Assembly (NCBI GenBank): GCA_945271295.1 | Contig: CALYPG010000004.1 | Location: 1 to 64,000, forward strand | DNA: 64,000 nucleotides | Direction of reading: 5' to 3' | Origin: an uncultured Gilliamella sp. | GTDB taxonomy: Bacteria; Pseudomonadota; Gammaproteobacteria; Enterobacterales; Orbaceae | Shown here: positions 55,695-62,800 of the stretch, piece by piece | Numbering within the stretch: the first letter of the stretch is position 1 | Layout: every line of letters begins with the position of its first letter | The notes under the pieces: generated by a model | The model's input: only the letters and a program-made list of their open reading frames with translations | Databases searched by the model: none | What the model was told of the DNA's origin: nothing | Translations under genes and position numbers: made by a program

Positions 55695-57449
<1,755 letters not shown>

Positions 57450-57497
57450 TTAATTAATTTATAAATGACTAAAAAGCTGCTAAAACTGAGACAAAAA

Positions 57498-57539
57498 AAA
57501 ACCTAAAAAATAGATATAATTATCTATTTTTTAGGTTTT
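57498..57539 (-). terminator. Leader terminator (attenuator) of the porin mRNA
   Basis: Perfect 19-bp arms (57498-57516 and 57521-57539) enclose a 4-nt loop. On the minus strand the stem is followed by an uninterrupted T run, so it should stop transcription about 70 nt before the porin start codon. Its upstream arm contains the AAAACC end of the antiterminator RNA, making the two structures mutually exclusive. Confidence 0.9.
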
Positions 57540-57563
57540 GCCCGAATAACTCGGTAACAATCC
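57534..57563 (-). promoter_or_regulatory. Ribonucleic antiterminator (BglG/LicT/SacY type)
   Basis: On the minus strand the 30 nt read GGATTGTTACCGAG, then TTATTCGGGCAAAACC. This is close to the RAT consensus GGATTGTTACTG...GCAGGCAAAACC. A CCGA/TCGG stem can form in its centre. It overlaps the first arm of the leader terminator as known RATs do. A BglG-family antiterminator protein bound here should allow transcription into the porin gene. No such protein gene is in the window. Confidence 0.88.
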
Positions 57564-57592
57564 ACTACTTTAAATAAACAAGTAGTTCATTT

Positions 57593-57653
57593 AATATAAC
57601 GAATATAATTTGTAATTCAAAAATTAAATATTTGTATTGTGATTTATGTCACA
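57593..57653 (-). promoter_or_regulatory. CRP-dependent promoter of the porin gene
   Basis: On the minus strand TTGAAT (57615-57620) and TATATT (57593-57598) with a 16-bp spacer form a sigma-70-like promoter. The perfect CRP site TGTGA-TTTATG-TCACA occupies 57638-57653. Its centre is about 60 bp upstream of the expected start point, the class I CRP position. The RAT begins about 25 nt into the transcript. Confidence 0.8.
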
Positions 57654-57938: not shown

Positions 57939-58652
57939 ATGCCAAACTTTTATAAGCCATTACGTTCAAATAGCTACTCGGTCCCCTGCCAGTTGTGTAG
58001 TATCGGATCATTATGTCTTCCTATGTTATACAATAATACCTTAGGTACCGTTTTAGAACGGAAAAAATCTTACTTAAAAGATGTAATTTTAGTAAAGAAA
58101 AATACTGAATTTACTCAATTTTATATTATACATTCTGGCGCTTTAAAGACTTATGATATAACTCCAGATAATAAAGAACAGATAAATGGTTTCTATTTAC
58201 CTGGAGATATCGTTGGATTAGATTCGATATCGACCAAGGTTTATAACAATAATATAAAAGCTCTTTCTAATACTTTGGTTTGTGAACTAAATTATGAAGA
58301 ATTAATGTCATTAGTTGAGACCAATAAAAATGTTAGAGATATGATTTTTAAGCTTTTAAGTAGCGATATTTATAATTATCAGAAATTAGTGCTTTGTTAC
58401 TCACAAAAAAAGGCTGATGAGCGCTTAGCTGCTTTTATATACTCTCTTTATTCACGTTATGAACAACGAGGGCATACTTCATTAAATATAAAATTAACAA
58501 TGTGTAGAGCTGATATAGCTAATTATTTGGGCTTGACTATTGAAACAGTCAGTCGAAGTTTATCTAAATTTCAAGAAAAACAAATATTATCAGCTCGAGG
58601 AAAATATATAGTTATTAGAAATCTAAATGCATTGATCGATTTATGTAATTGA
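57939..58652 (+). CDS. fnr: FNR-type oxygen-responsive regulator
   Basis: A 237-residue CRP/FNR-family regulator. The iron-sulfur ligands of E. coli FNR are matched in order and spacing: C17, C20, C26 (PCQLCSIGSLC) and C115 (LVCEL). The effector domain shows LPGDIVGLDSI, and the helix-turn-helix has the FNR specificity residues E-x-x-S-R in TIETVSRSL. It should be a [4Fe-4S] regulator of anaerobic metabolism. It is shorter at the N-terminus than E. coli FNR and divergent from the porin. Confidence 0.88.
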   Translation: MPNFYKPLRSNSYSVPCQLCSIGSLCLPMLYNNTLGTVLERKKSYLKDVILVKKNTEFTQFYIIHSGALKTYDITPDNKEQINGFYLPGDIVGLDSISTKVYNNNIKALSNTLVCELNYEELMSLVETNKNVRDMIFKLLSSDIYNYQKLVLCYSQKKADERLAAFIYSLYSRYEQRGHTSLNIKLTMCRADIANYLGLTIETVSRSLSKFQEKQILSARGKYIVIRNLNALIDLCN

Positions 58653-58702
58653 ATTTATTATGTGTTATAATCATGTGAAATTTATTATAAGGTCTATCAA
58701 AT

Positions 58703-59740
58703 ATGAGAAGTATAAAGAAAACTATCATTGCTACAGCTATAGCAATTATTCCTATGTGTTCTTTTGCCGCACAACAATTGAATGAAGAACAAGCAACGAG
58801 CTTACAGTCTTTTAAAGAAATTTCTGTGCGTGGAGCGTTTTATACCAATAATGACTATATAATGGCAATGTCCAAAGCAGCTGATAAAGAAGGAGCAGCC
58901 GCTTTTTACATCACTACCACTAATATAAGTCCTTCAAATGATACTTTACGTATAGTCTACGCTAAATTATATAAAGCTGATGCGCCAAAAGCAGCTGAGA
59001 AAGTTGAAAATATTCGTCGATTTGAAGGTGTATTTGAATACCCAAAAACTAAAGCTATTCGACTTGAACCTTTTGATATTGTTCGTATCCGAGGTTACTT
59101 TACAAATGAACTTGAAATAAATCAAGCTATAGCCAAAGAAGCATCAGCAAAAGGTGCATATGCATTTTATATTGATAGCCGTTCACAACTAGGAAGTAAT
59201 TTACAAATTGCAGCTTATCTATTCAAAAAAGATGCACCTGAACGTAAATTACAACCTGAAAATGCTATTCCATATGATTCTGAAGCGGGTCAACTAGCTC
59301 TAGCTCAAGGTGGTGAAGCCGCAATGCAAGTTGAAAGACCTGGCTATTATTCACCATCAGCTTTTAATGAAAAATTCTATGCTGATAAATTTAATAATAA
59401 AGTTATTGATAAAACCACGACTAGTGATACTAAAACAGCAACTACTGCAAGTTCAGAATCTACAACATCAACTGTTGCTGCTGAACCACAACGGATTACT
59501 CGTTACACTGTCACACTTCCTGATGGTAGAAAGATTCAAGAATTAAATGATGCAACTGCAGCTAAAATGGTAGCCTTTGATACTATCAAATTCCGTGGTT
59601 ATTATGTAACAGATCAAGAAATTTCCTATCAAGCAGGGAAACGTGCTATAGATAATGGGGCTAAGTATTATCATATTGCACGAATAGCTCAAGATACCAA
59701 TGGTCCAAATATCACTGTTTTTGTCGATTTGTATCGTTAA
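58703..59740 (+). CDS. ydgH: YdgH-like triple DUF1471 protein
   Basis: A 345-residue periplasmic protein with a signal peptide (about 1-22, ending SFA) and three DUF1471 (YdgH/BhsA/McbA) domains at about 37-90, 117-175 and 290-345. Each shows the pattern of a charged strand, RG, and A(Y/F)(Y/H)I. A Thr/Ser/Ala-rich linker (about 235-260) separates the second and third domains. DUF1471 proteins are linked to stress and biofilm responses. It starts 50 bp after fnr. Confidence 0.88.
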   Translation: MRSIKKTIIATAIAIIPMCSFAAQQLNEEQATSLQSFKEISVRGAFYTNNDYIMAMSKAADKEGAAAFYITTTNISPSNDTLRIVYAKLYKADAPKAAEKVENIRRFEGVFEYPKTKAIRLEPFDIVRIRGYFTNELEINQAIAKEASAKGAYAFYIDSRSQLGSNLQIAAYLFKKDAPERKLQPENAIPYDSEAGQLALAQGGEAAMQVERPGYYSPSAFNEKFYADKFNNKVIDKTTTSDTKTATTASSESTTSTVAAEPQRITRYTVTLPDGRKIQELNDATAAKMVAFDTIKFRGYYVTDQEISYQAGKRAIDNGAKYYHIARIAQDTNGPNITVFVDLYR

Positions 59741-59813: not shown

Positions 59814-62800
59814 TTAAAATTCTGACTTCACATTTTCAATGTACTGCTTTATGCGTTTAGCTGAAATTGGGTACGGTGTTCCTAATTGTTGTGCGAATAA
59901 ATTTACTCTTAATTCTTCAATCATCCAACGAATATTACTTACACCTTCTCTTAACCTTTGATTTTCGGGTAAACTAATTATCCAATTTTGATATTGGTTT
60001 TCAATATCTTCAATTATTGCCATTGATTGTCTATCTTTGTTTGTATTTGACATTAATTTTTCAATGCGTTTTTCAATACCTAATAGATAGCGTTGAATAT
60101 CATGTAGTCTTAAATATCCTGTGTTAGCTACAAAGCCCTTATATACCAAATTATTGAGTTGTTTCTTTATATCAGATAAAGCAAAAGCTAATGACAAATC
60201 CACTCGCCCTTTCAATTTTTTATTAATATTAAAATGTAACGTTAAAATTGATTCTACTTGTTTGGCAATATCAACAACGGTTTCGTTAATATGAGCTTTG
60301 GTATAATTTAGTAGTTCTTGATATTGTGTTGAATTTTGTATGGGTTGATTATATATTTCAATCAAATGATCAACACCACAAGCAATGCAATCATCAATCA
60401 GCATTAACACAGAACCAAACGAATTAAAATATAACCCTAATTTAGATTTGTTAGGTAATTTTTCATGTAAATATTTTATAGGGGAAGGAATATTAAGCAT
60501 GAGCAAGCGTCTTATTCCAAGTTTGCTAAGCCGTTGTTGATCGTGGGGATTATCCATTAATTTAATACTGACTGAATTTTGATTATCAATGATTGTGGGA
60601 TAAGCCTTAATCGTATAATTTTTTTGTTTTTTTTCATAAATAGTTGGTAATGAACCAAAATTCCAATCAGTTAGATTAGTTTGTTCTAGATTATTTGTTG
60701 ACTTGTTTTTTAATGATGATAAGGCTTGTTGTACTTGAACTTTAAGCTGCTCTTTAAGTATATCTAAATCCTTACCTGCAGCAATTTCTTTATTATTGTT
60801 ATCAATGATCGCAAAAGTCATTTTTAAATAATCGGGTACTTGCTCTATTTGCCAATCATTATCATCAATTTTCACTCCTGTCATTTTCCTAAATTCATTT
60901 GTTAACGTTTCTAATAAAGGTTTATCAGTTGTATTTACCCTACTTATAAATGCTTCAGCATAATTAGGCGCCGGAACAAGGCTTCGGCGTAATGATTTTG
61001 GTAATGACTTTATTAGCGCTATGATTAAATCCCTTCTAAATCCTGGTACTTGCCAATCAAATCCATTATTTTTAATTTGATTTAAAAGATCTATTGGGAT
61101 ATTAATCGTGACACCGTCACGGTTATGTCCAATATCAAATTGATATGTTAACGGTAATTTAATATTATCTTGATACCAAAAGTCAGGAAAATCTGAAGTT
61201 GTGATTAATTGAGCTGAAGGTTTTATTAACTCTCTTTTTTCAATATTAAGAAAATCAGGTGCCGTTTTTTGCTTCTGTTTCCACCATGAATCAAAATGTT
61301 TTACTGAAATAACTGTTTTATCAATCCGATGATCATAAAAATCATATAATTCATCGTCATCAATTAATATATCTTGCCGGCGAGATTTATGTTCTAGATC
61401 TTCAACTTCATGAATCAATCTTTGATTATGTTTATAAAACTGATGATTCGTTACCCAGTCACCTTCTACAAGTGCGTGACGGATAAACAGAGAACGGCTT
61501 AAAACTGGATCAATTTTACTATAATTGATTAACCGGTTGGTGACAATTGGTAAGCCAAATAAAGTCACTTTTTCATCAGCCATAGTGGTACCATGCTTTT
61601 TAGACCATCTTGGTTCGCTGTAACTATATTTAACTAAATGTTTAGCAATGGGTTCAAGCCAGTCTGCTTCAATTTTGGCTGCCGTTCTACCCCATAATCG
61701 ACGAGTTTCAACTAACTCACTAACTACACACCATTTAGGTTGACTTTTGAAAAGAGCTGAATTAGGAAAAATAGAAAATTTGATATTTCGAGCACCAATA
61801 TATTCATGTTTTTCAATTTCTTTCATACCCACATGGGATAATAAACCACTGAGCAAAGCCATATGTATTGATCGATAATCAGCTGCTTTACTATTAATTG
61901 GAAAAGCTAATTGCTTAATGGTCTGTCTTATTTGTGTGTAGACATCTTGCCATTCTCTAATACGCAAATAATTTAAAAACTCTTTATGACACAAACGACG
62001 AAATTGATTACCTGATAATGTATTTTGTTGTTCTTGTATATAATTCCAAAGGTTAATAAATGCAATAAAATCAGACTCTTTGTCGGCAAATCGACGATGT
62101 TTTTCATCTGATGCTTGTTGTTTGTTAAAAGGTCTTTCTCTTGGATCTTGAATTGACAATGCTGCAGTAATAATCATAATTTCTTTACTACAACCTAAAC
62201 GTCTTGCATCAACAAGCATTCGCGCTAATCGTGGATCGATCGGCAGTTGAGCTAAAATTTTTCCGATTTCGGTTAAATGATATTGATGATTTTTGGTGTA
62301 AATTGCACCTAGTTCTTCTAATAATCGAATTCCATCGCGAATGTATTTAGAATCAGGTGATTCAACAAAAGGAAATGCCGCAATATCCCCTAGTCCCAAT
62401 GAAGTCATTTGCAATATTACTGATGCAAGATTGGTACGTAATATTTCCGGTTCGGTAAACTCGGGACGTGATAAAAAATCTTGTTCATCATATAAACGAA
62501 TACAAATACCATCAGAAGTCCGACCACATCTTCCTTTACGCTGATTAGCTGAGGCTTGTGATATAGGTTCAATGGGTAGTCGTTGTACTTTTGTTCTATA
62601 ACTATAGCGACTGATTCTGGCTAAGCCCGGATCAATAACATATTTAATTCCTGGAACAGTTAATGAGGTTTCAGCAACATTAGTGGCCAGTACTATGCGT
62701 CTTTTAGAGTGTAATTGGAATATACGATTTTGTTCAGAAGCCGACAATCTTGCATATAATGGTAAAATTTCAGTATTACGTAGCTCAAATTTATTGAGAA

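Follow-up and report, generated by a model that had tools for sequence, protein, structure and literature searches.

Antitermination at RATs, the antiterminator hairpins of the BglG/LicT type, is mainly known from PTS operons that are controlled locally by their own first gene. In Escherichia coli, the porin gene bglH is the fourth gene of the bgl operon, bglG-bglF-bglB-bglH (PMC2646131). The porin leader described here, from a relative of Gilliamella (family Orbaceae), resembles that operon in the RAT sequence, in the overlap of RAT and terminator (two E. coli RATs were read, L223), in the BglG, BglF and BglB homologues of its genome and in having a porin under the same control. However, whereas the E. 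coli porin lies downstream of bglG within the operon, here it stands by itself on another contig, with a promoter-like region, a RAT and a terminator of its own. The closest precedent is Klebsiella, where bglH lies apart from bglGFB in a stand-alone yieC-yieL-yieK unit (PMC2646131); the text on Klebsiella in that source notes the separate position and states no RAT for bglH. In K. pneumoniae CP125156.1 (L221:2877-2999), we found two tandem RAT/terminators before a porin frame absent from the gene table, and the same two RATs precede an annotated carbohydrate porin in a plasmid record. The Klebsiella porin, too, is therefore apart from bglGFB and behind RATs, but in contrast to Orbaceae the RATs are two in tandem, the unit comes after phoU (which also precedes the E. 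coli bgl operon), and a hydrolase and a deaminase follow.

In Bacillus subtilis, SacY targets sacXY and the sacB operon (PMC6148471) and LicT acts on bglPH (PMC1489936). These regulons are similar in that PRD antiterminators serve more than one unit, but they belong to Gram-positive cells, without an outer membrane and without porin targets. The Pectobacterium arb/bgl operon reads RAT-bglG-RAT-bglF-bglB-porin; its porin is 46% identical to ours over the matched part and, unlike that of Orbaceae, has no RAT pattern match directly before it. For Clostridium, the RAT form GGATTGTTACTG-N6/7-CAGGCGAGACC was given and RAT-dependent read-through shown (PMC12628678). The components are thus known (bgl operon, Klebsiella bglH, SacY, LicT) and the arrangement seems to be a new variation on them. 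None of the titles and abstracts listed by a limited literature search described a porin under RAT control that lies outside a bgl operon; the search gave no literature on Gilliamella with an antiterminator and, among the papers listed for Gilliamella with beta-glucosides, nothing on such regulation.

The window (the whole stretch of DNA analysed, 64,000 nucleotides of contig C4) belongs to a 2.80-Mb genome, 99.96% complete (G000). On its minus strand the porin leader runs, 5' to 3', from a CRP-like palindrome through a promoter-like pair, the RAT and the terminator with its T run to AGGA and ATG:

57638-57653, minus strand: CRP-like site TGTGACATAAATCACA, read from the sequence, centred about 59.5 nt upstream of the putative transcription start.
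57593-57620, minus strand: promoter-like pair TTGAAT-16-TATATT, with the putative transcription start near 57586.
57534-57563, minus strand: RAT GGATTGTTACCGAGTTATTCGGGCAAAACC, a BglG/LicT-type antiterminator hairpin in which 9 of 9 expected pairs are possible.
57493-57539, minus strand: intrinsic terminator (stem search, shuffles) with a 19-bp stem at 57498-57539, a 4-nt loop and a T run to 57493.
57437-57440, minus strand: Shine-Dalgarno-like AGGA before the porin ATG, read from the sequence.
55695-57428, minus strand: porin gene, 577 aa, with a full LamB barrel domain (PF02264 search).

The RAT is an element of approximately 29 nt with the conserved GGATTG...CAAAACC lower stem and two internal loops. 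When searched with 18 fixed bases and up to three mismatches, the window gave one match, at zero mismatches, and a relaxed pattern matched exactly twice over the whole genome (reversed control, 0). The RAT covariance model scored the porin element at E 6.2e-13 (44.9 bits); it was built from 29 sequences, of which 10 are porin RATs, so that its matches on porin leaders are not independent. A single terminator was found in the region versus 0.0 (sd 0.2) in shuffles, and the leader folds into it (z = -3.0). Its 19 pairs (57539-57498) begin with AAAACC (57534-57539), which is also the 3' end of the RAT, and the two structures are mutually exclusive. An earlier note on this DNA had read here a near-consensus RAT whose AAAACC end is part of a 19-bp terminator stem with a T tail, and both elements stand. 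We rejected the possibility that the terminator ends a neighbouring transcript, since the adjoining upstream genes (57939-59740) run in the opposite direction and the first minus-strand gene beyond them ends at 59814. Promoter-like pairs as such are not enriched in the region (4 versus 5.9 expected in shuffles). The centre of the CRP-like site, about 60 nt before the putative start, would place it near a class I position.

Mutually exclusive hairpins are common in leaders. At gathering cut-offs, Rfam detected two tRNAs in the whole window and nothing else; its bglG-cis-reg family (RF03530) matched the porin leader only at a loose limit (23.4 versus a cut-off of 80 bits). The same family was not matched at E 0.5 in four other RAT-bearing loci (L004, L020, L203, L161), a search which covered 100 times more sequence, so that a match as weak as 23.4 bits would not show. 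Both the commonness of such hairpins and the missed Rfam cut-off would fit a plain intrinsic terminator or attenuator under other control (translation, or another RNA-binding protein) with a coincidental RAT match. Against this stand the 0.08 matches expected by chance at three mismatches, a RAT lower stem that is invariant among 28 orthologous leaders, and the placing of all 99 strong RAT matches of the family in four slots (see below), and we consider such an explanation very improbable.

The porin matches PF02264 (LamB) at E 3.9e-73 over the entire profile (1-378 of 378) and is the only LamB-family match in its genome. Judged by eye, it begins with a signal-peptide-like start followed by a coiled-coil-like N-terminal extension. 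It misses the NCBIfam maltoporin cut-off of NF006860 (subfamily; 184.8 versus 394 bits) and that of the equivalog NF009061, which we take to be BglH (107.5 versus 765 bits). Its identity of 45-48% with the porin of the Pectobacterium bgl operon suggests a BglH-type channel, for which aryl-beta-glucoside specificity is predicted. The neighbours are genes for an Fnr-type regulator, an alpha-2-macroglobulin and a helicase (presumably hrpA), with no bgl genes and no antiterminator gene among them.

The genome contains one CAT_RBD match, at G000:C1:244121-244987, in a bgl locus with the order bglG-RAT-bglF-bglB. This BglG passes the NCBIfam LicT equivalog (386 versus 300 bits) and scores under the cut-off of the E. 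coli BglG equivalog (294 versus 322). It aligns to the CAT domain and both PRDs of the solved LicT structures and carries K5, N8-N10, G26-R27-G28, F31 and histidines at 100, 159, 207 and 269, which we assume to be the RNA-contact and phosphorylation positions of LicT. The EIIABC protein (BglF) of the locus is above the beta-glucoside subfamily cut-off TIGR01995 and below the BglF equivalog NF007335 (809 versus 894); the 6-phospho-beta-glucosidase (BglB) is above the subfamily cut-off NF007356. As the sole CAT-domain antiterminator match lies on another contig than the porin, control in trans is the best reading. The earlier note had arrived at the same view from the missing antiterminator gene beside the porin, and the unlinked LicT equivalog, together with a RAT and terminator before every orthologous porin, supports it.

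A porin orthologue was found in 28 of 44 Orbaceae genomes. All 28 have an upstream RAT-model match, 30-35 nt long, and a terminator stem of 16-22 pairs. The pattern used at the outset is matched exactly by 16 of these leaders; in 11, the T of position 7, which falls within an internal loop of the assumed structure, is replaced by C, and the remaining one has a diverged core. The latter belongs to the most diverged porin (G040, 63% identical), whose RAT has GGATTGTGATTGCGTTTAGCAAGCAAAACC, with a C-G pair swapped to U-A. The second K. pneumoniae RAT (CP125156.1) is likewise of the C7 form. The palindrome TGTGA-N6-TCACA is exact in 25 of the 28 leaders, or in 27 if A is allowed as the first base; in these 27 the distance from the start of the site to the RAT is 79-90 nt, and 25 of the 27 fall within 84-86 nt. 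In an alignment of 14 leaders, 13 show TTATATT and one TTATAGT. The 13 nearest named porin relatives (of 16 loci found) belong to Gilliamella and Frischella and are 72-75% identical, which assigns the window to Orbaceae. In none of the 13 do the fetched flanks (up to 6 kb) hold bgl genes; one has a weak YdgH match. The porin unit of the window lies at another genomic location than in these 13 relatives, with its control region retained.

The two hairpins were also examined for compensatory change. Among 29 RATs of mixed origin, all four upper-stem pairs change on both sides, with 27 cells so changed (shuffles, 8.4; none of 500 as high). Neither the count of double-change pairs (47 of 500 shuffles as high) nor that of further pair types (480 of 500) exceeded shuffles. 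Within the 28 porin leaders, the RAT signal is weak, with 6 cells versus 2.9 (24 of 500 shuffles as high) in 3 double-change pairs (2 of 500 as high), and 17 of the 28 leave pair 13 unpaired. The 28 porin terminators, in an alignment in which the G040 row is poorly placed, gave 8 double-change pairs and 24 cells versus 3.1 and 5.9 in shuffles (0 of 500). These data bear on the idea that the porin left an ancestral bgl operon together with a RAT and terminator that no longer function, and is now expressed otherwise. Decay of this kind does occur in the genome of the window, where a damaged RAT (G000:C1:239783-239811) remains and the OprD-type porin is absent. However, RAT and terminator are retained in 28 of 28 porin leaders while the sequence farther upstream diverges, and the terminator stem shows compensatory changes; we hold such a relic to be very improbable. 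The switch is very likely in use, with its reader acting in trans.

Of the 39 genomes with a completeness of at least 90%, 24 contain both porin and BglG, none the porin only, 11 BglG only and 4 neither (Fisher p 0.017, without correction for relatedness); one of the latter four holds a fragment under the cut-off. The porin also occurs, with no BglG match, in two less complete genomes (59 and 67%). In nine genomes with both genes on one contig, the distance from porin to nearest bglG ranges from 22 kb to 1.0 Mb. Additional CAT-domain proteins, a second or a third, are encoded in several relatives (e.g. G005:C1:336627, G011:C1:2964268, G042:C1:2491904), and for 17 of 54 CAT-domain matches over the cut-off the usual place after the gene holds no strong RAT. 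Such proteins may read a different RNA element. They would also allow another PRD antiterminator, and not the BglG of the bgl locus, to act on the porin RAT, but the window's genome, and likewise many relatives with a porin RAT, has a single CAT_RBD match, which makes this the least probable of the alternatives considered.

Over the 44 Orbaceae genomes, the RAT model gave 115 matches, of which 99 were strong (E 3.3e-7 or lower); its search filters may lose weak matches. A narrow pattern (short loop, only C at position 10) misses most RATs of bglF leaders, which wider patterns and the model recover. The strong matches occupy four slots: 36 precede bglF, 28 the porin, 14 a GH3 glucosidase, and 21 lie at the point in the bgl cluster that an OprD-type porin usually occupies. 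BLAST confirmed bglF behind 36 of 36. An OprD-like match follows the RAT in 19 of the 21 OprD slots (a broken gene in G043); of the other two, G008 has only a gene of fitting length and the window's genome has none. Pfam supported OprD in 3 of 4 proteins scanned and GH3 in the one scanned. The GH3 beta-glucosidase has a signal-peptide-like start; two of the 16 GH3 matches, one of them a fragment, lack a RAT match. The 16 weak matches (E 6e-4 to 0.05) include one in the OprD slot of G012. The porin is not an isolated case but one of four kinds of RAT target, and with RATs at four kinds of locus its leader belongs to a multi-locus, RNA-controlled beta-glucoside regulon.

In the window's genome, the model added a third, decayed RAT to the two found by the relaxed pattern, before the porin and before bglF. 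It lies at L004:5784-5812 (the damaged element mentioned above), on the minus strand, reads GGATTGTTACTGAATTTACAGGTAAAACC with a GTAAAACC end, and precedes a histidine-phosphatase-family gene in the OprD-type porin slot; no T-tract stem or terminator was seen after it. It is likely the footprint of the loss of an OprD-type porin gene. The RAT-linked kind of GH3 match was not found in this genome.

We consider it highly likely, on the sequence evidence assembled here, that the porin belongs, without linkage to the bgl locus, to a BglG/LicT antitermination regulon. In the proposed mechanism, cAMP-CRP would activate the porin promoter and RNA polymerase would normally halt at the terminator, after some 90 nt of leader. 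Uptake of a beta-glucoside by BglF would lead to dephosphorylation and dimerisation of BglG, whose dimer would bind the emerging RAT, block the terminator and allow the porin to be transcribed. The porin would thus be induced by a beta-glucoside, and outer-membrane permeability would require both low glucose (through CRP) and a beta-glucoside (through BglG), as in an AND gate. It would change together with the inner-membrane PTS and, in relatives, also with the OprD-type porin and the GH3 beta-glucosidase. Since close relatives keep the switch, it is probable that both membranes, outer and inner, are opened together by a single sugar-sensing protein encoded elsewhere. A broader reading, which we favour with less assurance, is that one BglG in trans opens up to four envelope-spanning units (LamB-type porin, OprD-type porin, GH3 and PTS) and that the block of CRP site, promoter, RAT, terminator and porin moves as a self-contained, re-wirable cassette; the porin block of the window having other neighbours than its relatives, yet keeping its control, points to such a cassette. 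The RAT, kept across a family of bee-gut-type bacteria, would be a scattered regulon tag that links outer-membrane channels to a sugar sensed at the inner membrane, and a simple, testable case of a cis RNA switch becoming a trans regulon. With four kinds of co-regulated gene named, dietary beta-glucosides are predicted to be a controlled food source for these symbionts.

Among 394 genomes of the order, 29 match the Pectobacterium porin at E <=1e-60, 22 from Orbaceae and 7 from elsewhere. Of these seven, G359 and G069 have a RAT directly before the porin. In G275 and G198, a bglF-like gene follows the RAT and the porin lies downstream of that gene, G164 has a whole bgl operon with no RAT directly before the porin, and no RAT was found within the 16 kb examined in G284. 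G230 shares an identical porin with Pectobacterium L020, where the operon is complete. Given the RAT-porin pairs of Klebsiella, G359 and G069, the unlinked arrangement is, as judged from these loci, present in more than one lineage. The premise of the earlier note that known RATs lie before PTS or beta-glucosidase genes was therefore too narrow; E. coli bglH already lies in a RAT-controlled operon, and the RATs directly before these three porins contradict it as well.

Some further features of the bgl loci were observed. The palindrome TGTGA-N6-TCACA also occurs before bglF RATs in the bglG-bglF gaps of L137, L128 and L136, and CRP with RAT may be a shared control logic of the regulon. RAT length varies: many bglF RATs of Gilliamella are long (42-47 nt), those of the window's genome and G015 have 34 and 33 nt, and the GH3 RAT of G032 (L162:2801-2855, G032:C5:542800-542854) reaches 55 nt. 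A shrunken bgl cluster at L227:7731-10671 (G043:C1) consists of bglG, a shortened pgm2-like frame, a RAT, the broken OprD-type gene and pgm1; neither bglF nor bglB was matched in this stretch. Downstream of the bgl cluster of the window's genome lies a CRISPR-like array (L004:16-1363, G000:C1) of 28-nt repeats at 60-nt spacing, for which Rfam CRISPR-DR4 scores slightly under its cut-off.
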